A stretch of DNA of 64,000 nucleotides from Polytrichum commune. Lineage: Eukaryota; Streptophyta; Polytrichopsida; Polytrichales; Polytrichaceae. The notes under the pieces are model-generated. The model made no database searches. It had not been told where the DNA came from and saw only the letters and a program-made list of their open reading frames with translations. Each line of letters begins with the position of its first letter. Position 1 is the stretch's first letter. The stretch is from NCBI GenBank assembly GCA_950295325.1, contig OX485803.1, positions 71,749,554 through 71,813,553 on the forward strand, in the 5' to 3' direction. Positions 28,011 to 50,590 of the stretch are shown one piece after another. The translations under genes were made by a program, and so were the position numbers.

Positions 28011-28285
28011 AATCGTCCACAAAGACACCCATACGTGTTTGAAAGCTGGTGCGTAAGAAAGGTTTAGGGTGCGGGATGTAATGGGGATATTAACTAAAAT
28101 GAGACAAATGGTCCGCTCATTTTAATGTGGGGAACGTGATGGGAACGCAATGATTGATTTTTTTGTACGAGAGAATACCCGTAGAGGTTTTAGCCTCCAC
28201 AAACCAAGTGTTCCAATGAAACCGGGCAAACAATCAATTGTAATATGGAGGATCCCATCAAGGAAGACAAAAGGATTGTGCCTAC

Positions 28286-28310
28286 ACTCCATGGGTGAAC
28301 ACCCGTGGAC
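28286..28310. repeat. Imperfect copy of the element-specific palindrome
   Basis: CCATGGGTG AA CACCCGTGG: one arm base differs from the consensus CCCACGGGTG-NN-CACCCGTGGG. Confidence 0.75.
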
Positions 28311-28496
28311 TATTAAACATTGGACGACATTGGACGACTCCCACATATTAAACATGTTGGCTAATATGACAATGCACATGAAAATTCACAAAAAAAGATG
28401 CCTTTAAAAGTGGTAGTTTGAACATCCGTGGGACAAATGTCAATGTCTACGGCTCTCTAATTAATGCTCACAAAATTAAAATTGAGCTCCAAACAT

Positions 28497-28520
28497 GCTA
28501 GATGGTGTCAACCATCTAGC
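28497..28520. repeat. Unrelated hairpin of similar size
   Basis: The arms GCTAGATGGT and ACCATCTAGC are exact inverted copies around a 4-nt centre (GTCA). The sequence is different from the common palindrome, but the build is alike. Confidence 0.7.
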
Positions 28521-28574
28521 CCACCCATGAGAGTCCACCCGTAGATACCCAGGAATGAGCAAGGCAACTTTAAT

Positions 28575-31500
28575 CTAGAGGTCTTCTGTTGGTACCCCAT
28601 CCTCGAAAGTATCTCCATCAGTCATTTTCTCACCTCTAGTGCATCGATCTAAATTATCCTTTGCGAAAAGAATTTGCCGAGCTGGGATGAGAACATTGTC
28701 ATCGGACGCATTCCTTTGTCTTGCCCATGATGCCACAACACAATCTAGGGATTGATGTTGTGGTGCATAGTCCTTGAGCCTCGTCCATCAAAAAGATTTT
28801 GCCGTGTCCCATTCCTCATAACGTTCGTCTAAGGTCTTCTTGTTCCTTTGGCCAAGGACCGGTACATAATAGACAATCTCAATGGAACGAGGATTAGGAC
28901 CGATATGTGCCAAATTCGGCTCAGAAATCACTCGTCCCATCCACACTGGATTAGGACAATCCTCACTAGGACGTAGTAACACATAATGGCCAATCCTGAT
29001 ATGTGCGCCGGGACGGAAGGTCTCAACAGGTCGAGAACTAGCTGGCCCCACGTAAGCATAATCAGTGATGTTTTCCTCAAGTAGATGCACATTATCCACA
29101 TGGAGGGTTGGTGCAATGGAGAACCGTGTAGCTGGCCAGAATGGCTCGCTAAGTTCAGATGGAGTTGGGAGTAAAGGTTGATCCATAGCCGCAAGCACAT
29201 TCTCCCAATATAAAATTGTTGGTGCAATGGACTCCATATATTGACCCGAACTATCTTGATCTGCCGTATCCTTCCAATACTTAATAAAACCTTGCACCCC
29301 AAGCTTTATGTTCACGGAATCTTTCATCTCCCTTTTTGGAACGGGACGGGGGCACCCTACAAAAACAAACATACAATGAGCTCGGAGCAATACCACGGAC
29401 TAACTGCCCACGGGTGATCACCCGTGGGCCACATACTTCACACCATGTATTTTCTAGTGCACTTCCAAAGCAATACAAACAAGGGACCCACTAACCTGTT
29501 GGGACCATGGTCTTCTTTGTGATAGGGTCCACCTTCCAAAGAGCAATTCCTCCATCAGGCACCCAACTTGGATCTGTACAATACACTTTGTACTGCATCA
29601 ATGGCACTCCTTGAGGATCTACATAAAAACGGAATTGGTGCGCCTTGGAATGCCCAATAAGTCGATCTTGACCATACTCATTGTAGTATCCCTTCACCCA
29701 TTCCTTGAAATCTGCAACCTCGTGGATTAAGGACGGGACAATAGTGGGTTCCCCAGCAGCCATGAACGATGCCATGAGGTCTGGGAGTGTATGGCAATCC
29801 TCAATCTTCAGCCTTTGTCCAAACCTCCCAAACATTGCATCCACATCCTCATGCGTATGTCCAACAATAAGGAAAGACACCCTGACTTCCCGAAAAATTC
29901 CCTTTGCAGTCAGAGCTGACCAAAACAACATGTTGTATTTTGATTTGTTGTCCTTCGCACAATTGTCCATTTGAACAAGGAGGAGGGGTGGCAAACCTGT
30001 AGGAGGAATACTTGCGGGCGGTGGCAAGGGAAGTACTCCTGAACACTTCTCTACACCAACCACCAATGCGTCGTGTAAAGGATCACCTATGGACGAAATC
30101 GGAATGTGTCTACTAGAGCAAACAGGTTGTACCTCAAGTTGACAAAGCAACTTCATCATCGAGGTGATAGTGAAGTTGGCATCGGATGGGTACATATCAA
30201 GGACATAATGCGCATAATTCACATCTGAGTGACCATGTGCAATCATCCCCGCAATGGATATGGGGAATCGCTCGTATTTGTCAACACGTTTGTTTTTGTG
30301 CGCGAAGACGGGAAGAGCCGTTTTCCCATAATCCATTTTGTCATGGATTATACAAAGCACCTCATTGGGAGCATACTTTGACAAAATCCTATCTTTATAG
30401 TAACTGTTTCTATGAGCCTCCTGCAATGTTAGATGACGAAGGCTAGCATTCGAGATGGCCAAGTGACCAGTTGTGTTCTTTGTGTGTATTCGCAACAAAT
30501 CCTTGAATGCTGCACAAGTTCCACAACGCGAGAAGTTGTCGCCGGGGCTCTTTATAACATACTGCTTGAAATGTTGTCGATGTAGGCGGCTGAAGGTGGA
30601 CGTGGAGATAGGCGTGTACCCTAGGTCTCCGTCCAAGTTGTTCACTTCCTGCAATAGGTTGCACCACGTTGTTCCCACAGGGAGCATCTCCGTCCCTATC
30701 TTCTCACCAGTTGGAAGAGTCCGAGTCATATGGGGCATGGCGTCCGCCCTACCCTCAACCAATACTCCAAGGGTGGCTCGTGCTTGCACTGTATTCGCCC
30801 GTGGTTTTCTAGTTCCTGTATTTCCATGATCTCGAGATCTAACCCCCATCAAGCTTTCAGCCTTGTTCCTATTATATTGTGCCCTTGATATCATATAGAT
30901 GTTCATCCATGCTCGAGTGCATATTGTTCTCCCTTCCAACTGCACCATTTCACGTCCGTTGTGCTCATGTTTCTGGATCGATTGGAACACCGACAGGGCT
31001 ATGAGCTTCCGAGCATTGAATGGCAATGCGAAGTAGTGTTCCCGAATACTCATCAACAAAGGCCTTGGGAATACCTGGCAACAATGCTCGGAACAACAAT
31101 CCACCGCTGATAACATCCGCGCATGCTCCTCAGTGGCTCCCCAAATTTTCTTCCCAGGTGGCCGAGGTGCACACATCCTCACAGTGTTGTATTGGCGTTT
31201 TCCAAGCAAGCGCCGATGACTTTGAACTTCGCGGGTCGCATTATGATGGACCAACAATATTTCCGCTAATGTATGTCCTTCAAATTTGGTGAGTGAAAGT
31301 GGCCATCGGTGCAGCGTATTCTCCCAATCTTGCGAAATAACATTGTCAGTTGGGTTCAAGATAATAACTCCAACATCCTCAGCCCCTAGGATGCTATTGT
31401 CAACACAATCCAACGGATTTGTGTTGCAAATCAATCCATCACACAAAGCATGGCCCTCATCATCAAAGAGCACAACGGCCTTCCCCTTCAAGTCCGTCCT

Positions 31501-32448
31501 CGACAGTCCAATGTAATGTGGAATCTGAACATCGATATCAAAGTATGTCAACACACATTGACCAGAAGCTCACGGGTGTTCACCCGTGGGGGACAACATT
31601 GACATCTCAAGAGAATATTTACATTCATATAGGGGTGAGCTTTACACCTCACTTCACACAACTCAAGTGAAGTATGTGTTACTTATCATATCCCCATTGG
31701 GAGAATGACCCTTATTACCAGTTTCCACAAAGCCCAAACACCAAAACTATCACCCCTAACACTTACTTGTGTACAATTATTACTATGCATGTAGGTGTCA
31801 CATCTGCTGGCCCAAGTGCTAGCGAAATAGTTGCCATTCAGGATAGTGTCAACATTCCAGTTTAACGAATATCATCGTCATCATTTATCATAATGCATCA
31901 CGAAACTCCCAACTCGTAATAATATGTACCAATTACCCATTGACAACATATTTCACATACTCAGCAGGAAATTTACAAATAAGCATAATTGCATATACAA
32001 CTATTGAGTATGTCACACACATGATACATGCCTATCTTATAACCACACATATGTAGGGAGAACTAAAATACAAATCATGAACTGCCACGGGTGAACACCC
32101 GTGGGGGCTTCCATGCTGGTGCCGGATTCTCCCACGGGTGTTCACCCGTGGGAGGCTACCATGCTGACATCTACTACTAGAAAGTTTGTCACACACATGA
32201 GCATATGGATAACTTCTATTCTGACATATGCTAGGATAACCGAAATAAAAACCATAAGCTCCCACGGGTGAACACCCGTGGGGGCCCCAAACCGGGTGCC
32301 AGAGTCTCCCACGGGTGAACACCCGTGGCAGACTGGCCGTACAGGAGGGGTACGGCCAGAGTGTTGTCACGGGTGCACCCGTGGGAAAGTGGATGCACAT
32401 TGGGGTTATAAAACCAACCTCTTCACTCATGTGAGGCACGCTCTCCAT
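28575..32448 (-). CDS. DUF7869-like protein, candidate transposase of the 25-kb element
   Basis: Proposed exons are 32448-32419 (MESVPHMSEE), 31524-29496 and 29356-28788, all with GT-AG borders and matching phases; about 875 residues. Pairs Cys153/154 and Cys158/159, and a CxxC near 344-347, suggest zinc sites. Three acidic motifs follow in order: IIHDKMDYGK (Asp405/408), VQMDNCAKDN (Asp530) and GHTHEDVDAMFG (Glu569, Asp570/572). These could form an RNase-H/DDE-type catalytic triad. I infer this from spacing and motif type; no family member is known to me to be biochemically proven. The frame stops at TGA (28790-28788) where the homologue at 62.6 kb continues (…NFKWT). Reading past it, 70 more codons stay open to 28575 and match the homologue (FAKDNLDR versus FAKDNLAR). 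A single nonsense change near the C-terminus is therefore likely. Both introns carry palindromes. Confidence 0.7.
29357..29495 (-). other. Intron 2 of the DUF7869-like gene, absent from its relatives
   Basis: This 139-nt intron has donor CAG^GTTAGT and acceptor TTTTTGTAG^GG. It contains one perfect 24-bp palindrome at 29406-29429 with an AT centre. The homologue at 62.6 kb and the pseudogene at 26.8 kb are continuous across this position (LVPDGEPKPCK), so the intron was gained here or lost in both others. Confidence 0.7.
31525..32418 (-). repeat. Intron 1 of the DUF7869-like gene with a palindrome cluster
   Basis: Six copies of the CCCACGGGTG-NN-CACCCGTGGG family lie in this intron: 31569-31590, 32085-32104, 32130-32153, 32261-32282, 32308-32328, and a compact form cacgggtgcacccgtg at 32369-32384. 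Centres are AA, TT or absent. Between them the sequence is AT-rich, without coding signs. Confidence 0.8.
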
Positions 32449-32516
32449 GGTTGCTCCTCAAGGGTGAAGGGGGGTGGACTCAAATGAGGAGAAAGAAATG
32501 ACCCTCCAAATGGTGG

Positions 32517-32528
32517 CCTTTATATAGG
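32517..32528 (-). promoter_or_regulatory. TATA box of the DUF7869-like gene
   Basis: On the minus strand cctatataaagg lies about 70-80 bp before the proposed start codon at 32448. That codon sits in a good context (accATGG). A transcription start near 32490 would give a leader of about 40 nt. Confidence 0.55.
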
Positions 32529-32529
32529 T

Positions 32530-33220
32530 CGTGAGCATGGCCATCAACTTCTCATGAGGAAGTACAAGGCATTCCCTCCAAATTCGTAAGTACATAGACG
32601 TCATTCCCTCCAATTCCTATCGCTATTAGCTAATCACGTTCTAACCTTCCTCATATTGAATAATGATGACCTTCGGTAGTGGGGTTCTACATCGTATGTA
32701 CATGGAGTGAAAATTTGTTACAAGGCGAAGGAGAGTCTTTGCGGTACCAATGATCATTGGATAACCTTTGCATACACCTCATACCACTACCAAGCATACT
32801 CATGCCAAAATTACATAAGGACATGTGCACACATAACAGGTCCACCACTTATGATGGGCACCCTTGCAAAATGAATAGTATGAAGGTTAGGTATTGTTTC
32901 ATCCGCAAGAGTTAACAACGACATGGGATTCTCTCACCAGAGTTATAGTTCCTTTATATTTTATAATTGTGAATAGGATGCCTATTTTGTGGGCAAGGTG
33001 CAAGGATAACCCGGTCAAAGCTACTATTATCTTTCATGATTGCAGTCTAATTTGGGAATATGATTGCACCCAAATTCAAGGTTTGAAGCTCAACACTAGC
33101 CTGCTCCTTTTAGAGCAACTAGCATTGTGGCCCATTGTGTTGCAACTTCGGAATAGTTTCATATACTTCTCTCGAGGGGGGGTAGTCATTGGTTGGAGTA
33201 GCAATATACGTGCGAACAAA
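32530..33220. other. Upstream spacer inside the 25-kb element
   Basis: No gene is recognised; a 109-codon frame at 32894 lacks known features. Confidence 0.4.
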
Positions 33221-33224
33221 TGAT

Positions 33225-35146
33225 AGGGTATTTTAAAAACATGGGGGCTAAAAATTATAAATGGAGTTAAGAGTAATATAGGGTATCAACCAGTATGCTC
33301 GACAGCTTTAAAGTCCTATAGGGTATGGAATAATAGGTAATTTGGAATTATAAGTAATGCAAGCCATTTTTCTATTAACCCAAAGTAGAAATTTACATAA
33401 TGATAGCATCATTGTGAGAAAAATAAGAGAATTGAAAGTAACACCCCCCCTATAAAATAATGGTTGTTCGCACCTATATCCTTAACTTTTTAACACACTG
33501 CCCCCCCCCCCCAAGATACTTATACTTTCCTAGCCTTGTCAACTTGCCTCGCTCCACCCCATTGTCCAATGTTGTATTTCATGAGCAAATGTTTTGTTGT
33601 ATCCCCATGATCATTCTTCTTAACCGACTTGACATGTGGCACACCTCAATTTCATGATAGTGGACATTTATCTTTATCAACTTTGTGAATCTTCCATATC
33701 AAGTTCACACTTTATGGTTTTTTTATTTCTCAAATTCTCGCCGCCTCATTTCGCATTCTTTGCCTTCTCATTGTTTTGTATTTACTTGGAAGCCTCTAGC
33801 CTTGATGTCAAATTTTCTTTGGTCTTCATTACACTACCTTGGAGTTAGAAGCAAGCAATGTCATTTTTCCTTTGGTCTTTGATTATTGTACATCAAAGCA
33901 AACAACTCATACCCAACATAGTTGGAGTGCGTAATCTCATGGGTTTGAGAGTGTACGTAGTGTAGTTGGGGGTTTGATTATGGGAAGAGTGTTGGTAGCG
34001 TGAGCAAAGCGCATAACGTTTTTGGAGTGTAGTGTATAGTTGTGCGGAATAGGGAGCAATTTGTTTACTAGGATAATCCTATACATGATGTAATGTTCTT
34101 TGTGAAATAGAGTTATGCATTTCCTAAAATTGATTTTGTGAAGTTTTGAATATGGGTACCAAATCATGAAATTGTTCACAACATGTACTGAAATTGGTTG
34201 TTTAAATAATGAACTTGGTTCATATTTCCAATGAAATTGGAAGAACCTATCGCTAAATTGCTTTGTTAAATCATGAATTTGAGTTTGCACTTTTGTGGAT
34301 TCATCTTACCAAAGGAGTATGTGTCACTTTCCTTTATAAACCTCTTGGTTTTGTTCACGACTTTGAAACATTAAACATCAAAACCCTAAGGTCACAATCA
34401 TGTACTTAAGTTATCGAAGATGACCATTGAGAATTATTACATCAAAACATAAAACCTTGAATTTATAATTATGAAGTTAAGTGGACCACCTTTCCCAAAC
34501 AATCTCAACCTTAACCTCAAACTCAACCTAAACCCCGATGGTTCACGGCAGTTTTTTCAAGTTAAGTTATCCAAGATGATTGTTGAACACTCTTCCCAAA
34601 CAACCTCAACCTCATCATCAACGGTTCACAATGGCTTGTGGTGGTTTTATCAAGTTAAGTTATCCAAGATGCCCATTTAATAACTTTCTCATGTGACCTC
34701 AAATTTAGCACCAATGATTTGTGACCATGCCCAGCCTTGTCAACTTGCCACAACCTTGCCTCGCCCACCCCCATTAATAGTATGATATAGGATGTGATGA
34801 CTCAATACCTACCTAGACTCCTACTATGGCATTATACACAATTTGACAATTCGACCCTTCTCCCAATAGCTCAAGCCTAGGGTTAATCCATCTTTGACTT
34901 GAAAGCGCCACATGTTACAAAATGAATTTGCATGTATTGACTGAAACATGCAAAATGCCACCAAAGAGAGAGAGAGAGGGAGAGAGAGTCCATTTTCATG
35001 GCACCTCTTTGATTTGCACAACCCATTTTTCAACTTTTAGCATCACTTGTCATTCTTATCAATCATGATGTTGGACATGTAGCAACATACCATAGAGTTC
35101 CTTTGCCACAAATATGTGTGTGTGTGTCTATATGTATGTATGTATG

Positions 35147-35181
<35 letters not shown>

Positions 35182-35490
35182 GGCCAACTCGGGCGTCAAT
35201 GCCCTATTTACACTGGGGAAATCATCAAATTTATAGCACTACGCTAGAGATGTTGATCCATTTATAAACCGGTTTAGGGTTTAGGGTTTAGGGTTTAAGG
35301 TTATTTATTTCCTTAGCATTTTCAGCTCTAGGTTAGTAGGATAGGGCCTTGCATTACTTATATTTCCAAGTTACCTATTATTTCAAACCCTATAGTACTT
35401 TAAAGATGTCCAACGCCATTTTTGACACCCTATATTATTCTAAATCATTTTGTTCATTTTACGTCCCCATATACCCTCTCAATTTTTCGC
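33225..35490. repeat. Inverted-repeat-bounded AT-rich segment with telomere-type repeats
   Basis: The left arm (about 33300-33470: ctatagggtatggaataat, taagtaatgcaagcca) is found inverted at about 35265-35460. The right arm begins with TTTAGGG repeats (35270-35300). Poly-C runs sit near the arms (33503-33514, 35521-35534). It looks like a non-autonomous element or a nested repeat inside the large transposon. Microsatellites are at 34966-34988 (GA) and 35112-35180 (GT, TATG, TA). Confidence 0.5.
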
Positions 35491-35499
35491 ACGTATATT

Positions 35500-38400
35500 T
35501 CTACTCCAATACATCACAACCCCCCCCCCCCCCGGTATGTGTCCACTACATTTCTAGCTGCACTTCCTAGGTTTTACGCTATATACTTATGGGCCCACCA
35601 CTTATGCCCTTTGGATGACCGTTTTGAGATCCCATGTCGAAATGATGGCTTAAGGCTGACCGATCGACAAGGCTGTAGAAAAACGTGACTCCAATCATTT
35701 GACATGTCCTTGGATAATGCACATGTTTGGGTAGACTTAGTTTGGACACCACGTGTGTGATTGGAACTCCCAATGCAGCTAGAGGACATATACTCCTTAA
35801 CCTAAACCTTATGCCACAACACATACATTGAAACAACAATACAAAACAAACACATACAACCCCTTAATAGATGCAATGAGATACAATGGTTGCAATGTCA
35901 ACCCCCTCTTCCCAAACTTGGATGCCCCAAATAGATAGTTGCACCCAACATAGCCCGGCTTCCAAAAGGAAGGCAATAAGCCCTATAATGAGCCCCCCCC
36001 CCCCCCCCACCACCACCCCCAAACTCATGTACATTATAGAGCAAACATACTCAATTTTTCCTAATAAAAATTTCTTCCCCTTTTCAGGATGTGCTCTTCC
36101 ATATGTGGAGAAAAACCTCACATTCAAGAGTACCTCTCATCGATCCGACAGAAAATATAAAACTAAACCCCCTTGGTTTAGACTAATTCCGTAACTTTGA
36201 AGCTAATTACGGTGTCAAACCAATTGAATTTTTAAATAAAATGTTTTTGGATGAATGTTGGGTGTGCTTGTATGTGAGCATGTTTTCTTGTCTTTGCCCT
36301 CGGATTGATAGGCTTTGCCTACGCATGGGGAATTTGTGATAGCATTTACATCCTCAAGGGCTTGGGCTTCTAATGTGAGGCCCTATATACATATCAATGT
36401 TTTTTTGGCCAACGAAATGGGATTATCGCATACGAGCATATTACTCTCATTCATCCAACAATGAAACTTTAAACTAGTATGTAGTAAGGAGGTTATTTTT
36501 CAAAGTTTATTGGAAACCCTATTTAGTTGAATTGACCCCAAATTAGTCTAGCCCAAGTTAGGGCACACTTTCATGTACCAATCGTTTTGGTGAAACAAAA
36601 TAGAGTTCTCTGACGTTGGTGAAGGTTTTGCCGGTATCTTCAAGCATCTTTTGGACTGAGCACTCCCATGTGGAGTGGCAATGGTGGTTGGGGGGGGGGG
36701 GGGGTAGCAGATTCGGCTCGTTGCCCAAAACACAAGTTGAAACGTGGCCATCCTTGTACTGACGCACTTTAGTTGTTGATTGACTAGACTGATTGATTTT
36801 TAATCATGGGATGCTAGAAAAATGAAAACCAAAATCTCCATAAATTAAGAAAACTTTGGGCAAGGTTTGAATAGTAAGAACATGGCATCATGAACTCTCA
36901 ATGTAAATACAACAAATTATGGTTCACACTAACAATGTATATAAAAACCAAGGTTTCTCCGCTCAAATGAAAATCAATTTCCATGTGCTAGAATACCAAC
37001 CTAGTCAAGTTTCCCTCCTCAAACTACAACTATCAATGAGCCCCACATACCTTATTAGTTTGGGCATGTGCCATCCTGACCCATTACACCAGTCCGTATG
37101 AATCATTTTGGGTTCATATCTTGCATGAACCCAACCACATACATTAACCCTTGCAAACCATATGCCCATGCCCCTGTAAAACCTTCATGTGCATGTACGC
37201 ACATAGCCCCACTCATAAGCCCCCGTGACCCGCTTTGGGAAAAAAAATAAAAAAATGAATTTATTATCTTTGTTAACTAATTGTCTTTTTTAACTAATTG
37301 CTAAAATAAAAAATGAATTTATTTAGTTATGTAGCATGTGAGCTCTCAAAACAACAGTCAGTACTCAATGCAATAAACTCTAATTGTTGCACCATAGGTA
37401 GGTATCATGGGATGATTCAATACAACATCTACTAAGGGGAGGGAGACCAAGGGAGGGGAAGTCGAAAGCATTGGTAACAATAGGACTAGAGATTTCTATT
37501 TAGAGATTATTAAACTACTCTTTAAAATCGGGGTCAAATACCTTTGAGTAACCTTTAAGTAACCTTTCCATAATGTCATGCTCCAATCCATGGGTATGAC
37601 TTGTGGACTTGCCATAAAGTATTTTTGAAATCACCTTTAAGGAGAATATAAAAGCTCAATTTTGGACCGTGTAGCCATAGATGTTGCATCCATGTGGGAT
37701 TTGTTGTTGCTCAAATTTAGTACTTTGGTACTTAGGTTGTCAATCCATGTGCACTATCGACCCTACAATGACCGAAAATATTTTGAGAGTGTGCGATTGA
37801 CTATGTTAGGTTATAATAAGGCTCTATGTGATAGCATGGTTATACTTACATGAGTACCCTTAGATGTGCACTTTGGGAAGGACATTCGAGGCCGTAAATA
37901 TGAAAGTCAACAAATACCTTAACCGTACAAGCCCACTTGAAATGGCCGGGGATTCGTGGCACTCAAGTAAAGTCATCCGGTAACAAAAATCGGATGAGTC
38001 CATCAAGAAGCTCGGATGGAGCTTACTTTAGTGAAATACCTCCGAGTTGGCATGTAAGACCTACTTTCTCCCTCATAGTTATTTTATAAATATTAATTTG
38101 TTGGCAAGGGGCAATGATGTGGCCTTGGATGCTCTAAGCCTATTTTCCAACCTCCCATGAGATGTTTCCAAGGCCATGATGTGGCTTTGAATTTCACATG
38201 GTTATTTTGATAAATATTGTAAGATATCAATGTGTGCAATATATAATTATGAAGTGTTGTCATAGACATCTTTTTGTTCATAATTCATTTATTTTGCACA
38301 TGTGTGATTGTTCAAACATTTGTAATATGGCACAATAATATATATCACCTTATGATAAATTGGTGAACTAAAAAACTCAATTCAATATTAGTATTAGTAT

Positions 38401-38860
38401 TGTTATTATTAGTATTTGCATAATAGTATTAGTATTAGTATTAGTATCATATAATTATATTTATTTAAAAGTAACGGTTATACACTATGTGATTTGAAAG
38501 ATAATACAATATGTGATGAGGATAAATTATTAAATAATTCAGATAGGCTATAGTCAGAAACTTATGATTTTCTCAGTAATATATACCCCATCTATAACAT
38601 TGTCCCACGAGTCTAATTCCAAATAACATATCATTTATTTATACCTTATTCTCTTATAAACACTTGCACTAATCTATCATTAGAATGACAAATATAAGTT
38701 ATTTATGGTAAGTCAAGCGGATTTTAGTGCACTCAATATGGGATTTGTAGTCAAGCGGCCTTCAAGAATGCAATTTTTGGTCGGGTTTAGAAATTTTCTC
38801 TACAAGATTGCCCCAACCCAGATTAGATACCTCCAAAAGTTCGTGAGGGGGTATTTAACG
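35500..38860. other. AT-rich interior of the 25-kb element, no gene recognised
   Basis: There are only short frames. Long homopolymers are notable: about 18 C at 35992-36009 and about 13 G at 36689-36702. A TAGTAT microsatellite lies at 38385-38450. Confidence 0.45.
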
Positions 38861-38871
38861 TCCGCCCATGT

Positions 38872-39400
38872 TAAAGCAAATATAATATGGGGTGTCAAAA
38901 ATGACACTGGGCATCATTAAAGTACTATAGGGTATGGAACAAATCGATTATTTGGATTTGTAATTAATGCAAGGCCCTTTTCTACTAACCCGACTAAGAA
39001 AACTACATAATCATAGCATGTGAAGAAAAAAATTGAAAGTAATAACCCCATATAAAATAGTGGTTGTTTGCACATGGATGCGCGATAAAAGAGAATTAGT
39101 TGTTGCTAGACTCCTAATTGCATATGAGTAGGACACAAATAGATGGCGAGCAACTAGTAAGGTCCAACACTAAGTGGACTACCACACTAATGGGTTTAGG
39201 GTTTAGGGTTTAGGGTTTAGGGTTATTTATTTCATTAGCATTTTCAACCTTGGGTTAATAGAAAAAGCCTTGCATTTCATATAATTCCAAATTACATATT
39301 CTTCCATACCCTATAGTACTTTAAAGATGTCCATTGCCATTTTTGAAACCTTATATTATTCTAAGTCATGTTGTTCATTTTTAGTGTGGCCCACTGTAAT
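38872..39400. repeat. Compact inverted repeat with TTTAGGG array
   Basis: 38872-39065 and about 39185-39400 are inverted versions of each other. For example, aaagtactatagggtatgga is near 38915 and its inverse is near 39310. The right arm starts with four or more TTTAGGG units (39192-39227). The same arm type bounds 33225-35490. Confidence 0.6.
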
Positions 39401-42400
39401 ATTATTGTACTTTCGTTGCCTTACATTGGATTTTCATCCAAATATACAGATGAAAAACCCACAGTAATGGAAACCCCTATTTTGAAGGGTATGCTATGTT
39501 ATATTGCAGATTAACAACAACACCGTAAGTGTCGTCACATGACACTGGGTGTTTGAGTGCACTTATTAAAATCTTGACATGACATGCCATTAGTATGCTT
39601 AAGGATGTATTCCTCTTAAATATTAAAATGAAACACATGACACTTGCCAATAGTGAGCTTAAGCATCTTACCCTTGGGAATGTAGTGGGAATTAACAAAA
39701 CCGTTTAATATGAACATGTACGTTATCACTATATCACAGTAGACAATATAGCAATCATCCATGACAATGTTGCATCACAAGTTGCTAACATGAGAAGGTC
39801 AATGGATGAACTCATCCATCATCATGACATGGCTCTAAGTTATACCTCATGTAGCGTTCACATATGAAGAGATAGTCTGGCATACAATGGGGTATGGGTT
39901 GGCATGTGAACTATGTTGAGGATCTGTGATCATATGTTTACTAATTTCCAATCTCAATATGATATCCTTGTCCAATAATTCTTAAGTGAGTCAGTGCCTT
40001 TAGAATTCAAGTTGATGTTCCCTAAGCTCGGGGGGGGGGGCATTCCCTTGTATATTTTGCATACACCTGCGATAATGATCTATTAAAATGGGGGCTATTT
40101 ACCTATGAGAAAGGATTATAAGGGATGCTAATTTTTGAAATAATGGTAAATTGTTGTGATTATTTGCACCCTATTGGTAATTATAAATTCTTGGATGGTT
40201 GATTTTATGGTACCCTATATTACTTATATGCAATTTTTCCCCCCTGATTGCCCCCATTCCTTAAAGTGTATGATACAGTAGAATTCTCGTTAGAAGCACG
40301 TGTACAAAGTAAGAGAAACAAACATTTACTAGGGTTTAGGGTTCAGGGTCACACTGAAGTCCGGGCAAAGCAAAACACTAAACAATAACAACAAAAGATT
40401 GCAATTACATGTCATTAAGCAACACGAGCCAACGAATGAAAGTTGTGTTGGATAACACAGTTAGAAACCTTGAGGTCTTAGGGAACAGGCCAGCCACATG
40501 TGTCTCAAAGTCACATTTACAAGGTTTGTAGAAGCCCTACAATTGATGCCTTGATCTTCCAATCCTACACATTGGTAGAAAATCCCACGCCATGCAAGCA
40601 AAATCCACCTAAACTAGCTAGGCTACCATTTACACATGTGGGAGATATGAGGGTAATCGAACTGAAATGGCTACTACAGATTTCAAGGTATACTAATGAT
40701 CATTCAACCCTTTCTCCAAATTATATCTCCACATGTGTGAGATAGTACAAATTTAACAGGTTTTATTTTTTATTTGAAATGAACTCATTCAATGAGTTTG
40801 CATCTACCTCATCTAAGGTGTAGATTTTGCTAGTTGATTCATTGTTACTAGAGACACTGTTGAGAGAATAGCATCCACATCAACCCACACACAATCACTC
40901 TCAACATACTTATATTTGTTGAGACCTAGCTGTTTTTTTAACCAATGGAGGTAAGCCATAGTAGTTGGGAAGAGCGTCTCTCTATTTCCGTTCTGGACTG
41001 CACGTTTCATCAAGTCAATGGGTTGCCAACAATTGCCCCACTTAGTACCAACCTTCACCCTTATCTTTTGAACCCTTCCTATATAGAACATGCCATATTT
41101 TGGTGGCAAAGTATTTAATTTTTGAAACTATCGCTTTTTGTCCATGCTATTTTATATGTACCACTTAGGTAATTTAATCATGTTTTGTCAAATGCTATAT
41201 TACATATAATCATGTTTCACAATCCCAAAGCACCCTATACTACACCTAATAATTTTACAAATTTTACGCCAAATTTTTATACAAGACCCTATATTTTATC
41301 GCACGTAGTTCCTACATTTTTCGCCAGTGCCCCCCCCCCCCGAGTCCCTAAGACATTAATGTCAAAGCTAAGTGTTCATGCATGTAAATCATTCTCATCT
41401 CTAATAACTTATGGAGTTATTTTTATCTCTTTCATGGATTGAATGACCTACGTATTATTCTTCCTCTATTCAATTATATTTCAATATTTCAATTTGAAAG
41501 AGTCTCAAGACTTTATGTATTCCTAACCTACTCCTCGCTAAAGTATCTTTACGAGATTCCACAAACCATTCAATTCATAGAGTACACATGATTTACATGA
41601 ATTCATTCATTGAAGTGTTTGACCCATTTCCTATTCAAGTTCTCATTTCCGTAAATCTTATGCCATCATTTAGAATTCCCTTTAATCGATGAGGTATGGT
41701 TATGGAGATGCAATCTTAATATTGCTCGAGATTCATGTGGTGCTTGATGTGGCCCACTCGTTGGCCACCTCCTTTGTCATCCTCTCAATATGATTTCGAT
41801 TCCGATGTCTCCCGCGGCCTTGCATATCACCTTGTACTTCAATATGTTAGTTTCCAAAGTCCTTTCTCTTTAGTTGACCGCTAATTTTGGCTAAGTCCAT
41901 ATGTGTTGCATGCAAAACAACCAACCCCCACCCAAAAATTTGAGTGGGATAAATGATAACTCTAGTGCCTTTGAGAAGGTCATTCTTGAATTTGTGTTAT
42001 CGCAAGCATGTGTGTTCATATTAGATGTCGACTATGAACGTCAAAAATCTTAGCCAATGAAGAGCACATAATGAATCTAGTAATAATATAACTTAAGATA
42101 CAATTACAAGAATAAACGCTAGGAGAATGACTTTAAAACCAAGTTATGAAGTGATTCTCAATGCATGGGGGTGAGGGCAAAGCCACAAAGAGATTTATGC
42201 TAAAATTGCCTAAATTTTTTTTTTATGTTAAACGATTTATGTTCATTCCTAGTAGTATTTACCTATCCAGTAGGGTTTATTGGGTATGGGAGGTGGGCAT
42301 GTACCCATTATGCGCGGCAAGTATTATGTGTGATGATTTCTAATGGCCAGCAACTTTGATGCTTTATAAGTATCCATAGCCGCTTCTTATGTCATGCCAT

Positions 42401-42700
42401 TATTTTCGTTGCCATAATATATGTTATATTTAAAATTTTGAATTCTTGGAACTCTAATGGTTCATAGTCCAAGAGAAAACAAGAGAACAATCGAACTTGA
42501 GTTCATGGGCTAAGGTGAAAGTGGGCCTATTATGGATGCTCACGACTTCATCAATAAGGAATTGGAAATCATAGCTATGCTTGATGTCAAGCGCGATTGA
42601 GCATCTTACACGCATATTATGAGAATGTGCAATTGACTTTGGTATGTTATAATAGGAATCTATGTTACAGAGTAGAATGTTAAAGTATGGAATCTATGTT
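39400..42700. other. AT-rich interior of the 25-kb element with repeat fragments
   Basis: Fragments similar to the telomere-repeat-bearing inverted repeats recur near 40080-40260 and 41180-41345, again with G or C runs (40031-40040 and 41331-41343). A minus-strand frame of 98 codons (41109-40813) contains IGRVQKIRVKVGTKWGN and ESDCVWVDVDAILSTVSLV. It may be a remnant of a coding sequence, but I do not recognise it. Confidence 0.4.
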
Positions 42701-42714
42701 ATAATATGAACCTA

Positions 42715-43245
42715 TTTTAAGCATTATCAATACTATTACCATTTATCGATTGAAAGTGATTATTATTATTACTATAAATCACTACTAGTCAGCCATTAGT
42801 AATTCATAATTATTAATCACTATTAAACATTATTAATGACTATAATGACCTATGAAGCACTAGCATTCACTATTATTCACTACTAGTCACTATTAGTTAC
42901 TATTAGTTACTATTACTGGTAATTACTATTAATCACTATAAATCATTTTTACTAATATTACTAATATTACTAATATTAACAATAGAGTGAATATGACAAT
43001 TTACTAACAATAAAAATAATATCAATCATACTAATATGAGTTATCTTAATAAGTACTAATAATGAACTTACTAATATGAGTTATCCTACTAAGTACTGAT
43101 AATTATCTTACTAATACGCAGTTATCTTACTAATTACTAATAATTGTCTTACTAATACTTAGATATCTTACTAAGTACTAATAATTATCTCACTAATACT
43201 TAGATATCTTACTAAGTACTAATAATTATCATACCAATAGGGCGA
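42715..43245. repeat. AT-rich tandem repeats
   Basis: Short units such as tattagttac and actaatatt are followed by a longer unit of about 40-45 bp (ttactaagtactaataatta, tcttactaatac) repeated about five times. Confidence 0.7.
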
Positions 43246-43439
43246 ACCTTACAAAGTACCAATAATTTTTTATCGCTACGTCCTAATACCATCATACCGC
43301 CCATCCCTCCTCAAAACGTACTTTAGCCGCCAAATCGCATATCTCTTCGCGTCCCGAGATTTCCTCCATCATGTCCCTTCGTACTAATGAGGCATTATGT
43401 GACATGCGACTTCCACCCTCTCGTCATTATGGCAACATT

Positions 43440-44370
43440 TCGCACCCTCTCTCTCCCTCTCTCTCCCTCTCTCTCATTCTCCTCTCCCAATTCTTTCTCT
43501 CTTTCCTTCACCACTCTCCACTTTTCTGGAATGCTCTTGCAAAACTCTTCTCCCACAATTCTGAACTTGCTTTGCTTCTCTTCATTCTCTTCATTCTCTT
43601 CTCTTCATTCAATTATTGTACTCCTTGTCTTGATTATCTTCTCAAGAAAACCCTGGAATAGATTCAGTGTGCATTTTCTTGGAATATGTGATAGTTTCTT
43701 GGTGAGCATAGTTGTTTCTTGCTCAATCCAGCATGTGGTAGAGGTGAGATGTGGAGAAGAGGAAGGCGACCTTGAAGCAAGTGGAGGGAAGTTCCAATCA
43801 TGAAGAATTGAGAACCCACAAGCTTGTAAGTTTCTGAACTCTTTCAATGTTTTGCACTCTCTTTCACTCTTTTGCTTTCTCTTTCAATTTCATTGTTCCT
43901 CTTGCTTGCATTGTTCCTCTTGCATGCATTGTTCCTCTTGCATGCATTGTTCCTCTTGCATGCATTGTTCCTCTTGCATGCATTGTTCCTCTTGCTTGCA
44001 TTCTTCCTCTTGCTTGCATTTCAAATTTCTGGTGCACTAGGGTTTGAATTGCTTGAAGAATTTCAAACCCAGAAATACTAGAGATTTGCATGTGAGTTGT
44101 GTGATGCTTGGGTGTGAAGAGTTGATTGAAATGTGAGAAAAATGCTCAAATCAGAATGCAAGATGAATGACAAGAGGTTATGTTCATAAAAATGTGAGAC
44201 CAGATTGCAAGAAGAATGTGAGGGCAGAATTTACCTATTGAGATGTTTGAGAGTATGAATGTATTGCACATGTAGGCATAGTTTGAAACAATAGCTCTTG
44301 TGTTTTGTTTTGTGCAGGAAACCACATTCGTATTGAAAGAATTTTGACATGGTCCCCCCAAAGAACCCTG
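43440..44370 (+). promoter_or_regulatory. Proposed leader region of the fusion gene, with repeats and an upstream ORF
   Basis: 43440-43660 is a CT-rich tract typical of plant 5' leaders. A possible donor (agctt^gtaagt) lies at about 43825. 43895-44022 is a tandem array of an 18-bp unit (attgttcctcttgcatgc, about seven copies). A small exon 44318-44370 follows an acceptor (ttttgtgcag). It starts a short upstream frame MVPPKNPG that, when spliced to 45114, ends after two codons (GT, stop). The array and the upstream ORF are seen. Their regulatory role is inferred, and the exon borders are predictions. Confidence 0.45.
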
Positions 44371-44444
44371 GTGAGTGTCCATTACATAAATCCCAGTTTT
44401 TCTGTTAGTGTGAACGCGGTTATCTGAAAGTGGATATTTGAAGT

Positions 44445-44610
44445 GCCCACGGGTGAACACCCGTGGGCTTTTGCACCCACAAGGTGGAGAGGCCCACGGG
44501 TGAACACCCGTGGGCCTCTCCCCCCATCCGGTTGAATGTGCCCACGGGTGTTCACCCGTGGGCTTTTGCACCCACAAGGTGGAGAGGCCCACGGGTGAAC
44601 ACCCGTGGGC
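44445..44610. repeat. First palindrome array (four copies, 47-bp period)
   Basis: Palindromes with GCCCACGGGTG arms lie at 44445-44468, 44492-44515, 44540-44563 and 44587-44610. Their centres alternate between AA and TT. Spacers repeat in pairs, either ttttgcacccacaaggtgga or a CT-rich version. The array lies in the proposed intron before the first coding exon. Confidence 0.85.
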
Positions 44611-44855
44611 AGTGGTGATTCTTCACAAGGTCCCTAACATGTCCGTGGTCACATGTCGACATCTTCGTTTTTTTCTGTTCTTTTTTCCTAATTTTGTACC
44701 AACTTGAGGGAGACTTAACTTGTATAGATATTACCGGTTTCGGGACGGGTTGAGATTTTTTTGCCTTTCAATTCAAGGTTTTTGGACGTGGACGAGCTAA
44801 AACTTTGTGAAAAATCAGCCCTCCCGTGGGCCTCTCCCCTCATCTGGTTGAAAGT
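44611..44855. other. Spacer within the leader intron
   Basis: No feature apart from a palindrome half-site (ctcccgtgggcctctccc) at 44821. Confidence 0.4.
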
Positions 44856-44975
44856 GCCCACGGGTGTTCACCCGTGGGCCTTTGCACTCACCTGGTTAGG
44901 AGTGCCCACGGGTGTTCACCCGTGGGCCTTTGCCCTCACCTGGTTAGGAGTGCCCACGGGTGTTCACCCGTGAGC
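44856..44975. repeat. Second palindrome array (three copies, 48-bp period)
   Basis: Copies at 44856-44879, 44904-44927 and 44952-44975 (the last with one mismatch) all have TT centres. They are separated by near-identical spacers (tttgcactcacctggttagg). Confidence 0.85.
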
Positions 44976-45153
44976 CTTTGCACTCACCTGGGTGGGAGAT
45001 TTTGTTTGATAAATGTCTTTTTGATTTTCTATGTAGACAAATTTGGTGTGTCTCTGTAAGCATTTGAAGGTTTTAGACATAAACATGTGATAGACAGTTG
45101 GTGTTTCATTCAGGTACATAGAGGTGTCGAAGTGTTCTCTCATTTGAATTGAG

Positions 45154-48100
45154 ATGGCAAGAACTAAGCAAACAGCCCGTAAAGGTATAACCACAATACC
45201 TATGTGCACGTCAATGTTATATGAGTTATAGAATCCGTGATAATATTGGGCTATGCTGAATACTTACATGTGCATTGTCTTCTGCAGTATCGGGAGGTGT
45301 GGGCAGACGGGTGAATTACGATGTTGAAGTTTTGGGCCCAGATTTGCAATGGTTCATGCAGTATAGTGGTTTCGGAGAGACAACGGTGCTCTCGCTTTAC
45401 ACGAGGACTGGGCCCAATTCCACATGGAGAAAGTACATGAAGGCAAAACATGTACTGGACATTCAAGCGGATGGGAGCCGGGTATTGATAATGTGCAAGT
45501 CGCCTGAACGGAAGAAGGACTTCAAGGTTGCAGCACTCGTGGAGACTTTCTCATATGCGGATGTGAATGAAGAGCTCAACAATGAGGGAGAGAACATCCG
45601 CTTATTGAACGGTGATTTCCTCACCTATTGTATACTATATTGCGAGACCAATGTGCACACGAAGTCCGTGGAGGAGAGGTCAGTAATGATCGAGCAGGAC
45701 TACAAGTCTGCTCTAGCACGAGTGAAGGTTATAGTTGAGGAGGCAAAGGCGGCAAGGTTGGAAGCATCTTTGAAGAAGAAGGAAATCCGCGATGGCAAGA
45801 GGAAGGATCTTGCTGATGTACGTGCCACCTCGTCTAGGAAGAAGACGAGACCCGATGAAGGACAACCACTGATTGTCGAAGACACTGACGGCCAGGATGT
45901 TGTCTCCAAGAGAGGCAAGAAGAAAACACCTGAGGATAGTCCATTTCTTGAACTCGAGAAGATTCCCAAGCGATCAATGCATGGGCCTCCAGACAAATCG
46001 GTTGGAGACAGGTTGATGGATATGGAGTTGTTCAAGAACAAGTACCAAAGGGTGTGGATATTCGGAGCATTCTGGTCTTTATCGCGAGGTTGAATCTGGC
46101 CAAGCGGATGTTCCGCGGGATGCAATCATGTCTGAAGCTGTGCATGTTGAAGTGACAAACACAGATTTGAACGTCAGCTCACCTGTTGAGGACGTTGCCG
46201 CTGCCGTTCTCGAGGTGCTAGGACATGGGCGATCAAATCGTGATTCACCTGGTGTTGTGGTTGCAGAAGAGCCTACTGTAGCGGCACCATCCAATGAAGC
46301 AGAGGAGGTTATTCGAACCGAAGTCATATGCTTGGATAGTGATGACGATGTGCCCGAAAGATGCGTAGAACTAGACGTGAGGGTGAAGGTGAGAGATCGA
46401 GTTCCACATCGGATTCGGGGGACGTTTGCGGACTACATGACGGATGATTCCGAGGATGAGGATTATGGGAAGCCTGGGTACAACAGAGTGAAACTCAACT
46501 TTGTTGATGACCCTCACCCGGTGTTTGCTGGGAGACCTGACATGGGCAAGGAATCGGATGGGAAGGACAAGGTGCATTTTGCCCCATTTGTGGACAAATA
46601 CTTGGTAGATGTGCCCGAGAACGTGCGATTGAATCTTGCGCATTTGTACACGTCGTACGATTATCACAAGATGTTCGCTTATCTCTCCACACCAGCGTTT
46701 TGTGAAGCAGTGAAGGTGAAACATATTCTTCATGCCGCTGCATTAAAGAAAATGAGAAAGAGATGGACAGCGTTCGAAGCTCCCAAACATCGTGATGAAC
46801 GAGGTCAATTCGCGGGGTCCTCGGCCGCTCAAGCCGGCAGTGTTGTGGACTCTACGTTGGAGATCATTGACATTACTGGAGTGCCAGAGTCTCCAAGGAG
46901 GGAAGTCGATGTTGCAGTTGCGGAGTCCTCAAGCCCTCATGTCGAACGTGTTGCTGAGGGTCAACCGGCATCGTCCGAAATGGTAATACATACTCCCTTT
47001 CCAATGCTATATTGTGTTTGGCGGTGGAAGCAAACTCGTCAAGATTTCTAAAAGTGTCTTTGCAACAGGTGTTGGTTGCGGCAGAACGGGATGTCATTCC
47101 ACCGAGTTCTCATGACGACCCTGCACATGGTGGGGATCCCCCCCTAAGCCAAGCTCAAGGTATCATATATAGTGTTATTTGAATGCAATTGGTCCCACGG
47201 GTGAACACCCGTGGGACCACCTGTTTATACTTTTCAATTTCCATACAAATTGTTATCTCTCGAGTAATATTTATATAAGGGACTTTTGATATTGTGCCCA
47301 CGGGTGTTCACCCGTGGGAGATTATGGGTTTGAGCGTGTGGATCTCATAAGTCATGTGTGCATGTGGTCACAGGTCATACAGCCACTGCCGGAATACCAC
47401 CTTCGGTACGATATTTTCCTCGATCTCGCAAAACTAATCCATAAATGTGGAGGCATTCTTTTATCTTGCATACTCATGTGTACCCAACGTGTTGTTTCAT
47501 TCGATAAAAATCATGTAGAATATACTTTTTCCTTAGATAGAAATTCTTTACAATGACTTTCAATTTTGTCATCGCCAGATCCTCACCTCTCCAACCACTG
47601 TTGTCCATCGGAGAGAGAAGATATGGTTAGTGCTGGATGTGAACGGGATCCTGGTGAGGTCAACAAAGTGCGACAATGTCAACACCAGGAAGACTCTTGA
47701 ATCACAACATAGCCCTCAGATAACTGGGGAGTTGGTTCCACTTTTTCTCCCATATAGTGCCCTCATACCTAGGAGAGGACTGGGACGCTTTCTGCGTTTT
47801 GTTCTCTCAAACTTCCATGTTGTCATCTGGTCGTCGAAGCTTATGAAGAATCTTCAGCCAATTGTCCGGCACTTCTTCAATGGTTGTAGACATCCAGAGT
47901 ATGTGTTTGGGCAAGAATTGTGTCACACTCTGAAGGATGAGAGAGGACAAGTTCTTCCTAGTCCTATGAATGCTGATTCAAGCTTCTTCATGAAAGACCT
48001 GTGCGCATTTTTTGAGTGGAGCCGGACGCATCCAGTGCCGCATACGAAGCAACCCAGTCATAGGACTACATTACTTGTTGATGACTCCCCTTACAAATGC

Positions 48101-48361
48101 ATCCCAAACCCTCCTGGGAGCTACATTAACCCTGTACCATTTATGTCAAACCAAAGCTTGGATACTCTGCATAGTTACCTGCAAAGGCTCTTGAGTTCTC
48201 AACAGTATGTGCCAGATTTTGTGGGGAGCAACCCTTATCCATCAGGACAGGGACCCTTCAATCTAGAGCTGCCAAGTTCTCTGATTTATAAGCAATCATT
48301 AGTTAGACATAAAATACTGACTTCTGCCCGTATGGTTCCAGAGGCTCAGATGTTAATGTAG
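45154..48361 (+). CDS. Fusion protein: histone H3 tail mimic, coiled-coil/acidic region, FCP1/NIF-type HAD domain
   Basis: Predicted coding exons are 45154-45184, 45288-46982, 47069-47159, 47374-47405 and 47579-48361, all with GT-AG borders; about 876 residues. Exon 1 reads MARTKQTARK, identical to H3 residues 1-9 after Met removal. The next residues VSGG align with H3 STGG. An in-frame TGA at 45145-45147 fixes the start. Then come an unknown domain, a helical charged stretch (EEAKAARLEASLKKKEIRDG), basic nuclear-type signals (SSRKKTRP, SKRGKKK) and a SUMO-interaction-like VICLDSDDD. The C-terminal domain has the HAD nucleophile motif KIWLVLDVNGIL, HVVIWSSKL, YVFGQELCHTL and LLVDDSPYKC. In family terms it is FCP1/NIF, acting on RNA polymerase II tails or other phosphoproteins. 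The second motif-I Asp is Asn here. One base too many near 46040-46090 breaks the frame in exon 2. Confidence 0.65.
47160..47373 (+). repeat. Intron with two palindromes
   Basis: Palindromes at 47191-47218 (28 bp, arms GGTCCCACGGGTG, AA centre) and 47297-47318 (TT centre) both lie in the intron between the third and fourth coding exons. Confidence 0.8.
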
Positions 48362-48845
48362 ATTCCCTATTGGGGCCGCCTATAGTGCACATTTGCACTA
48401 TCGGTACATTGTATTTGAAATGAGTGGATCTGAAACTTTGTTGCCTTTCAACTTCATTTGAAACTTGTTTTGGTTTTGTGGATTTTCTTCATGCAAACAT
48501 GTCATGGTCATGAATGTATCTCACTGGGAGTCTACTACTTTGCAACACTGCGGTGTTAGAGAATACCCGACTATTTCCGACCACAGTGAATGTCTGGCAT
48601 TGTCCCACGGGTGTTCACCCGTGGCAATGTGGTAGTTGATTCAATGAATGTATCAGGCCACTTGGACAATGTTAGTTGTGTTTTTGGGAATTATGGTTGT
48701 CATAGCGAATTTTAATATGTAGGACTTAGTCGGCTATAATTCATATGTTTTGAACATGTTCATCTTTACTAAAGGGCAACGGACGGGCTCCTCTTGCACA
48801 TAATGTCCTTCTTCCATGGACTCTTATGTTATTGTATCCTAACAG
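48362..48845. other. 3' flank of the fusion gene with a palindrome
   Basis: A palindrome lies at 48604-48624 (TT centre). The rest is AT-rich and may include the 3' untranslated region. Confidence 0.5.
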
Positions 48846-49430
48846 CATTCCCCATTCCAAACGCGACCTAAGAACTATATTGCCAGTCCACCATGTCGAC
48901 AACGTCCTCCGGATGCTAACGCCGACTTCGCCGAAGTGACATCTCCATGCCCTAAGGTAATTCATTTTCCACATGAATCCCAATTTTTTTAGTTGTGTTT
49001 CATCCCAGGGATTCTAATATCAATTTGTCGTTTGTTGTGGTAGACACATATGCTCCAAACACACGATGTTGCGCTCGCGGTTGCGGTGGCTGTTCCGGTC
49101 GCGGTTGAGAAGGCTGTTCCGGTCGATGTTGCGGGTCCGGTCACACGCGCTCGGGTGAAGAGACACCTTTCTCTCCAAACCACTCACCCCAATGAGCCCA
49201 CGGGCTCGGGAAATAGTTCTCGATGTTGGAGGTGTAGTTCACCCAATACCACCTCATCCATGTCTGATTACGTGGCTGCAAGGGTGAAACAACTTCGAGA
49301 AGCTACAGTTTTGATGGAGGAGAAAAAACGGCTTGAAGAAGTCAAGCGCAAGCAATGTACTATAGCTCAAAGACAACCTCATGACAAGATGTTGAAAATG
49401 ATTAAGGATTCATACTCCTCTTGTAGATAG
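48846..49430 (+). CDS. Possible two-exon gene end, unknown function
   Basis: A frame from 48846 (after a possible acceptor ctaacag) to 48956 joins in phase, across a GT-AG intron, to 49044-49430. The joined product contains RPPDANADFAEVTSPCPK, a valine/alanine-rich stretch, and a charged helical end (YVAARVKQLREATVLMEEKK). No start codon or upstream exon was found, and I do not recognise the protein. It could be an additional gene of the 25-kb element or chance coding. Confidence 0.3.
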
Positions 49431-49439
49431 CCGGACCTT

Positions 49440-50010
49440 TATGGTGATAGATTTTCCACGGGTGTTCACCCGTGGATACAACAATTCATATACTTTGTTC
49501 ACATTTTTTGTGCCCACTGTGGCATCTATGATTCAATCAAATGATTTTTTGACCCTCATTTGTGTAGTCGGATATGATATGTAGACCTTCCTTCATGTGT
49601 TATGGATCTTGCATCGTGTGTTGCATGGCGTTGATTGGTCACGGGCGTTCACTCGTGGTTAGATGTATTTGTATTCTCTGAGTAGTATTAAGTGCCCATG
49701 ATAGCTTTTATGATTAGGCCCATTATATTTGCATACAGTTGTTGACATGCGCATGGTTGTTCCTTAGTGGTATCGACTTATGTTGTATTATGGATATACT
49801 AGGCTCATCTGTTGCGGGGTGTTGGTTGGTCACGAGTGAACACCCATGGTGACAACTGGGCTAAGTTTTTATGTGGGCTAGAATAAGCATTATTTTAGCT
49901 TATATATATACACCAATGTGCATGAAATAGTGCCCTAGTCTATGTTGATGACCTTCCTCTTGTTCTAAACCTTGTCAATGATGGCAATTCACGGATATTT
50001 ACTCGTGAAC
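49440..50010. repeat. Decaying palindrome series
   Basis: Copies become less perfect rightwards. 49455-49476 is perfect over 22 bp. 49640-49657 reads cacgggcgttcactcgtg. 49831-49848 and 49988-50009 have several arm mismatches. Confidence 0.65.
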
Positions 50011-50199
50011 CACGTTCCCAATGCACGTTCCCATTGGTACGAATTGTCTCATAATGGCCCAATTGGCTCATTTTAGTTAATATCCCCATTGTAACTCTTG
50101 AAAATGTGCGGGCGAGGTTGCACATCCCACCCCTTGGGCCCTTTGACATGACATACATTTCTTGGGAGGAGAAATCAACCAAGGACGGGGTAGGATCAA

Positions 50200-50590
50200 C
50201 CCTAGATGCTAGGACAGTGGAAAAACAAAATAGTACAAAGACACCTCTTGTTCCACCTTTAGTTGTCCAATTGTTTCTACAGCCTCTGACTCTGATACAA
50301 GCTGTCCTAAAAGTCTTATAGGGCAACCACTCCCAATAGGACAGATAAAGCAGAGGAGGGTAAGTAGATTGCAAGCCAGTTTAACCTCTAAGCGAGGATG
50401 CCAATGCAATTTTGTGATGAAGCAATTGTATATGGACAACACTTTATGTGAAATTCAATACCATAAAATTAACCATTTCAACAAGATTGGACAAGCTTGT
50501 CATGGGAGTTTAGATTATGTTAGGACAATACTGAAAACAATGGATGTTGCATAGATTGATATATGACATTGATAGGATACATTACAATAT
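50200..50590 (+). pseudogene. Possible N-terminal fragment of a MULE/SWIM-type transposase
   Basis: The frame at 50369-50554 reads SKRGCQCNFVMKQLY, then HKINHFNKIGQACHG. This arrangement (CxC…H…CH) resembles the N-terminal zinc domain that I associate with plant MULE-like transposases of the SWIM type. It is followed by stops. Sequence before and after gives no longer match. The assignment is tentative. Confidence 0.35.

Follow-up and report, generated by a model that had tools for sequence, protein, structure and literature searches.

A histone H3 tail at the predicted N-terminus of a transposable-element gene in the moss Polytrichum commune

A stretch of 64,000 nucleotides from Polytrichum commune (the window) contains a reading frame that begins with MARTKQTARK, the N-terminal tail of histone H3 preceded by a methionine, inside what had been read as a transposon. 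The locus raises the question whether this start is an accident, a relic of a histone gene or a selected imitation, and what an imitation could do for the element that encodes it.

In the sequence-only reading the frame was given the N-terminus MARTKQTARK, the donor AAAG^GTATAA and an in-phase join to VSGG, and all of these were found again when the sequence was re-read. The tail exon runs from 45154 to 45184 (+) as ATG GCA AGA ACT AAG CAA ACA GCC CGT AAA G and is followed by GTATAA; the acceptor TTCTGCAG of its intron ends at 45287, and the spliced frame goes on as VSGGVGRRVNYDVEV (VSGG...) and stays open to 46093. After its Met, the window copy is identical to H3 residues 1-9, and its GG aligns with H3 residues 12-13. 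A degenerate pattern for such a start matched nowhere else in the window and not at all in 100 shuffles. The gene and its surroundings in the window are as follows:

45114..45184, forward strand: exon 1b, starting GTACATAG, with an acceptor TTCATTCAG that ends at 45113
45154..45184, forward strand: H3-tail coding exon MARTKQTARK, read from the sequence, the copies and the tree
45185..45287, forward strand: phase-1 intron, GT...AG, 103 nt, with a GT donor after the tail exon in 53/53 tails of the genome
45288..46066, forward strand: exon 2 of the tail gene (VSGG..., a weakly PH-like domain and a charged helix), cut by a deletion
46067..47051, forward strand: 3' remnant of a neighbour gene; the tblastn match of its relative P0006 starts at residue 295 of that protein, at the junction

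The genome to which the window belongs (407.8 Mb, 64 contigs) was searched for the coding start and, independently, for the protein encoded by exon 2. The coding-start pattern was found at 55 places, 38 of which have an element-like start ATGGCAAGAAC, and each of these 38 precedes a place found by the exon-2 search (in L025 an insertion separates the two). From the other 17 places four were read, all of them true H3 genes with the start MARTKQTARKSTGGKAPRK, and 13 were left unread. With the exon-2 protein 61 rows were obtained; in 34 of them the frame is open over at least 450 residues and the match contains no stop. The 54 copies that were read consist of 36 of the 38 element-like starts and 18 exon-2 places missed by the pattern, which counters the bias of an exact pattern; the count leaves out the upstream part of C6:5458949 and three fragment rows of the exon-2 search. 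In 53 of the 54 the tail exon is followed by this same second exon, and a check for protein-keeping copies that do without this start yielded only L054, which lost the exon through truncation, so that the proposal was left standing. The tails read MARTKQTARK in 35 copies, MARTKQTTRK in 13, MAKTKQTTRK in two, and MARTKQTAHK, MARTKQIARK and MARTKQTSRK in one each, and together they match H3 residues 1-9 at 457 of 477 positions. After the splice comes VSGG in 44, VPGG in six and VLGG in one, with two disrupted. The N-terminus had been said to be fixed by an in-frame stop, and this was seen not only in the window, where TGA is the third codon upstream of the ATG, but in every tail: the stop lies at codon -1, -2 or -3 in 52 of the 53 and at -21 in one, its place differing by subfamily, as though the tail had to remain right at the N-terminus. 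A protein search with the first 40 residues (proteins of about 316-1005 aa) scored five candidates, and the four among the matches listed were all family members, which is weak evidence that no other protein would have such a tail.

Constraint on the tail, which comprises 6.7 synonymous and 20.3 amino-acid sites, was assessed by parsimony on a tree made from the flanking UTR and intron only (143 changes in 79 alignment columns and 245 changes in 121, respectively). Sixteen synonymous and 17 amino-acid changes were placed on this tree. Thirteen of the 17 fell at position 7 (A to T 11, A to S 1, T to A 1), where tree error from the short flanks may inflate the 11 A-to-T events. The other positions had 12 synonymous changes and four amino-acid ones, namely two of R2K and one each of T6I and R8H, every one of the four on a terminal branch; the binomial probability is 2e-5 without position 7 and 0.003 with it. 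Third codon bases of the tail vary freely while the residues, position 7 set aside, hardly do, and A1, T3, K4, Q5 and K9 are unchanged in 53 copies. Any two of five subfamily representatives are 1-5 synonymous changes apart in the tail, with no amino-acid change in any pair. The second exons of the A/D and B/C groups are separated by a dS from 1.6 to beyond measure at a dN of 0.22-0.29; the tails of these two groups show 2-5 synonymous and no amino-acid differences. As the five representatives were drawn from the exact-match set, the absence of amino-acid differences among them is partly a matter of choice, and the tree is the fairer test. The expectation that ten such residues did not arise by chance is borne out by this retention across diverged subfamilies under amino-acid constraint. 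That purifying selection has kept the tail at the exact N-terminus appears well supported, and the encoded protein very probably carries a selected mimic of the H3 tail.

Position 7 differs from H3 in 16 of the 53 tails (Thr in 15, Ser in one), some of them in copies with an open exon 2, and the L063, L064 and L066 lineages have only Thr at this position among the copies read. The commonest change, A7T, is a G to A in CAG and occurs mainly in L049-L066; its repetition possibly stems from deamination at a methylated CHG hot spot. Chromodomains bury A7 of H3, and because Thr is tolerated here, mimicry directed at K9 readers would be weaker than mimicry of the K4 side.

That the gene lies on a transposable element, as had been proposed, was confirmed by inverted ends, target duplications and the limits of homology with other copies. 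Homology stops at 28081 (L074) or 28083 (L072) on the left and at 50089 (L073, L075) on the right, and the ends are inverted repeats beginning ATGGGGATATTAACTAAAATGAG:

28077..28080, forward strand: left target-site duplication, TGTA on both sides
28081..50089, unstranded: element carrying the H3-tail gene, 22.0 kb here
28081..28114, forward strand: left terminal inverted repeat, about 91% complementary to 50056-50089
28791..29399, reverse strand: further ORF beside the DUF7869 ORF
29494..31569, reverse strand: ORF with DUF7869 (PF25273), Pfam E 2.4e-46
47630..48361, forward strand: ORF of an NLI-interacting-factor-like phosphatase inside the element (PF03031, E 1.7e-9)
50056..50089, reverse strand: right terminal inverted repeat, pairing with the left one
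50090..50093, forward strand: right target-site duplication, TGTA on both sides

By coordinates, other copies measure about 25.0 kb (L013) and about 26.8 kb (L010), and their target duplications are ATCC/ATCC and CAAG/CAAC (three of four letters), respectively. The DUF7869 ORF is likely the transposase of the element; the ORF beside it, for which there was no Pfam match and no usable PDB sequence match, is perhaps the C-terminal part of the DUF7869 protein. The phosphatase ORF reads LVLDVNGILV at 47627-47659 (+), where FCP1/SCP enzymes have DxDxT, and its activity is doubtful. Long inverted repeats farther out (26982-28004 and 51162-51905) were rejected as the ends of the element, since two other copies share nothing there and homology with the window ends at 28081-28083 and 50089. 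The tracts 26982-28080 and 50090-51905 have inverted repeats of about 760 bp, composed of subrepeats of about 260 bp and flanked by CTTGGATAG/TTTGGATAG, and look like another element, interrupted by the one with the H3 tail. A giant-virus origin was also discarded, as a related-locus search confirmed no relative among viral contigs. Elsewhere in the window there are a second DUF7869 ORF, outside the H3-tail element (62589-63926 (-), E 1.9e-37), and three consecutive U2 spliceosomal RNA genes or gene copies (+) at 1078-1271, 2691-2883 and 5421-5587 (Rfam RF00004).

The idea of a single gene over 44.3-48.4 kb had to be given up, since past residue ~270, beyond a deletion, the frame continues in what is left of a second gene. 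Exon 2 breaks off at RVWIFG, passing at about 46066 into the neighbour gene, and the tblastn match to a relative of that gene suggests that about 3.1 kb are missing from the window copy. The window copy is a deletion-fused remnant, and the window itself therefore cannot encode the whole protein, which would have roughly 900 residues if the relative P0042 is a guide to its size. What holds of the proposed transposon mimic is an exact and conserved N-terminal tail; what does not hold is an intact gene in the window, and the tail exon may be optional (see below). The domain right after the tail may be PH-like. No Pfam histone match was obtained at E<=1 with the exon-2 ORF and the relatives P0042, P0014 and P0032, and no DNA-binding domain was recognised for the tail protein in searches including Pfam, the PDB profile search and the Foldseek and VIA-align rows listed. 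Fifty-eight proteins (sources ena, jgi and lgn, and one from ncbi) were found in the first two protein searches; some of them, P0002-P0007 among others, are related to the neighbour gene, the first query having run on into it. The longer relatives of the neighbour gene have about 600-640 aa and start MKVVNIVP. This gene keeps VICLDSDD[DE] (46323-46349 in the window; also P0002, P0003, P0006, P0016 and P0049), a putative SUMO-interacting motif by its look. The tail gene is preceded by an 18-bp tandem repeat CATTGTTCCTCTTGCATG at 43891-44038.

A second feature of the element, besides the tail, is a palindrome that recurs in its DNA:

28288..49659, unstranded: 19 palindrome-like sites (up to five substitutions), with none elsewhere in the window
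44446..44974, unstranded: seven 22-bp palindromes CCCACGGGTG(TT/AA)CACCCGTGGG, one with a mismatch, between exon 1b and an upstream exon 1a

Throughout the genome 819 T-type palindromes CCACGGGTGNNCACCCGTGG, 208 C-type palindromes CCACGGGCGNNCGCCCGTGG and 36 mixed sites were counted, with 0 for the reversed control each time. The two arms have changed together: 1,027 symmetric sites stand against 36 mixed ones, where independent arms would lead to about 356 mixed sites, a deficit whose tiny P value ignores the relatedness of the sites. Among 16 copies taken at eight kb, 12 carry T-type sites only (109 in all); the four copies of groups B and C have 34 C-type and three mixed sites between them. 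On contig C1, 35 of the 50 T-type sites among the matches listed are within 30 kb of an A-type gene, six at 30-60 kb and nine farther away, and 20 of the 29 C-type sites are within 30 kb of a B-type gene, one at 30-60 kb and eight farther away; the T/A-type and C/B-type pairings do not cross over there (for T-type sites, among the matches listed). Paired change of this kind would be expected at the sites of a symmetric DNA-binding protein. The palindrome seemingly also occurs inside the reading frames of P0002, P0006, P0016 and P0042, as peptides like HGCSPVG, HGRSPVG or TGVRPWE. The palindromes and the peptide VVNGQHTLAAC gave rise to the idea of a clamp with a ParB/DGQHR-like DNA-binding fold on parS-like palindromes, for which the structure model is weak (mean pLDDT 52.8); no ParB chain was among the Foldseek or VIA-align matches listed for this weak model, a PDB profile search returned one meaningless row, and tblastn to plasmids gave two matches with E of 1 and 4, of which the one examined (H2) lies in a histidine-kinase-like frame.

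The best explanation overall, to which we give a probability of roughly 0.5, would be a self-directed element protein whose H3 tail is displayed to chromatin factors of the host. Its mature N-terminus after Met removal would be ARTKQTARKVSGG, copying H3 residues 1-9 and the glycines 12-13, and would most likely be offered to the host's readers and modifiers of H3K4/K9. The protein would be directed to the element's own DNA, the target being marked by the co-evolved palindromes, and the outcome would be that silencing is weakened or that the chromatin state of the element is set otherwise. Translation of the spliced product, action in the nucleus and recognition of the palindromes by the tail protein, not by the DUF7869 protein, are presumed here. 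An action in chromatin on the element's own copies is somewhat better than an even bet, and a net anti-silencing effect a little worse than one. It is doubtful, if attractive as a picture, that artificial H3 tails coat the element via its palindromes and confront K4/K9 readers and writers of the host with a tail outside any nucleosome, so that silencing is diverted or an active state maintained, while use of an optional exon would exchange the H3-tail form of the protein for a tail-less one. The Thr residues at position 7, the bypass exon 1a, the lack of a recognised DNA-binding domain and a palindrome switch that seems to have happened once on the tree would all count against the best explanation.

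While chromatin-directed self-regulation or anti-silencing is favoured, the main rival is that the tail serves as a tether for transposition, binding readers of the H3K4 type and leading the integration complex to or from given chromatin, with the palindromes belonging to the transposase. A tether would be under the same constraint, K4 side and K9 both being kept outside position 7, and the element does have a likely transposase and 4-bp duplications. However, the palindromes sit in introns and spacers across the element and not just at its ends, which is more like regulatory or VANC-type targets than like terminal sites of a transposase, and the tether is considered unlikely.

Exon 1a offers a way around the tail:

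44349..44370, forward strand: alternative first coding exon 1a, MVPPKNP, phase 1, donor GTGAGT; coding-like

It has a counterpart in 15 of the 16 eight-kb copies, with the variants MAPPKNP, MSPPKKP, MTPPRKP, MSRPKKT and MVRPKNP; the residue pattern M-x-[P/R]-P-[K/R]-[N/K]-[P/T] is in large part presumed by the search pattern itself. When exon 1a is joined to exon 1b, the frame closes two codons on (MVPPKNPGT and a stop in the window, the stop being kept in 15/15). Joined to exon 2, it stays in frame in the window and reads MVPPKNPVSGG with the tail skipped. Exons 1a and 1b end in the same phase, and the tail exon could work as an optional cassette by which one N-terminus is exchanged for another. 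These features would suit a regulated switch of the element's own protein, in which host H3K4/K9 enzymes modify the tail or the tail docks on another protein of the element, and the form made depends on splicing of the optional exon. Pfam and PDB sequence searches with the ORFs revealed no reader domain, however, and a switch is less probable than a tether.

A captured H3 exon whose only role is to make a good N-terminus, retained because it helps translation or stability with no imitation involved, is improbable. Capture as such may still be the origin of the tail: the GG at H3 positions 12-13 looks like leftover ancestry, and would fit ancestry and convergence equally well. The residues stay while the third bases vary, beyond the needs of start-codon context or the N-end rule, and the four host H3 genes compared (L011, L012, L016 and L028) all read without an intron after K9. 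Chance or a false gene model is practically dismissed, for the predicted frame recurs from subfamily to subfamily with the same donor, acceptor, phase and residues.

How does the moss element compare with known systems? VANC proteins are anti-silencing proteins of Arabidopsis VANDAL transposons (PMC5735166, PMC10398659); according to the available text of PMC5735166, VANC21 binds motif arrays with subgroup-linked letters in VANDAL21, where the motif lies in non-coding tandem repeats and is T-type in one subgroup only and C-type in both. As far as that text goes, the moss element is alike in having short motifs piled up in non-coding parts with letters that differ by subgroup: an element-specific motif has accumulated in element DNA, and motif and subgroup change together. 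It is unlike in that its motif is a 22-bp palindrome and in its short inverted ends and 4-bp duplications. Mutator-like (VANDAL) transposons make target duplications of 9-11 bp, whereas those found here have 4 bp (TGTA and ATCC, with three of four letters agreeing in a third copy). The candidate here also carries an H3 tail, which the available text of PMC5735166 does not mention for VANC.

Histone mimicry is already known from viruses and host repressors. The extreme N-terminal peptide of the SNAG-domain repressors GFI1 and SNAI1 imitates the H3 tail and binds LSD1 (available text of PMC5896174). As far as that source describes it, an H3-like peptide likewise stands at the exact N-terminus of the moss element frame, judged by sequence. 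SNAG is a motif of host transcription factors that resembles H3 and is not known to copy residues 1-9, and it is not mobile. Influenza NS1 and SARS-CoV-2 ORF8 are viral histone mimics whose short motifs are not known to be N-terminal; the moss element resembles them as a selfish agent imitating a segment of H3 and differs from them in that its transposon protein would begin, at the very N-terminus, with nine H3 residues. Compared with histone H3 itself, residues 1-9 are identical in 35 of the 53 copies, together with GG at 12-13, and no histone fold was found after them. No comparable case was among the literature matches listed (titles and abstract openings, bioRxiv preprints being outside the scope). 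A selected, exact H3 N-terminus on a self-addressed transposon protein would give transposons a new means of contending with silencing, and the copies amount to a natural experiment on the residues of the H3 tail, with A1, T3, K4, Q5 and K9 fixed and A7 often changed.
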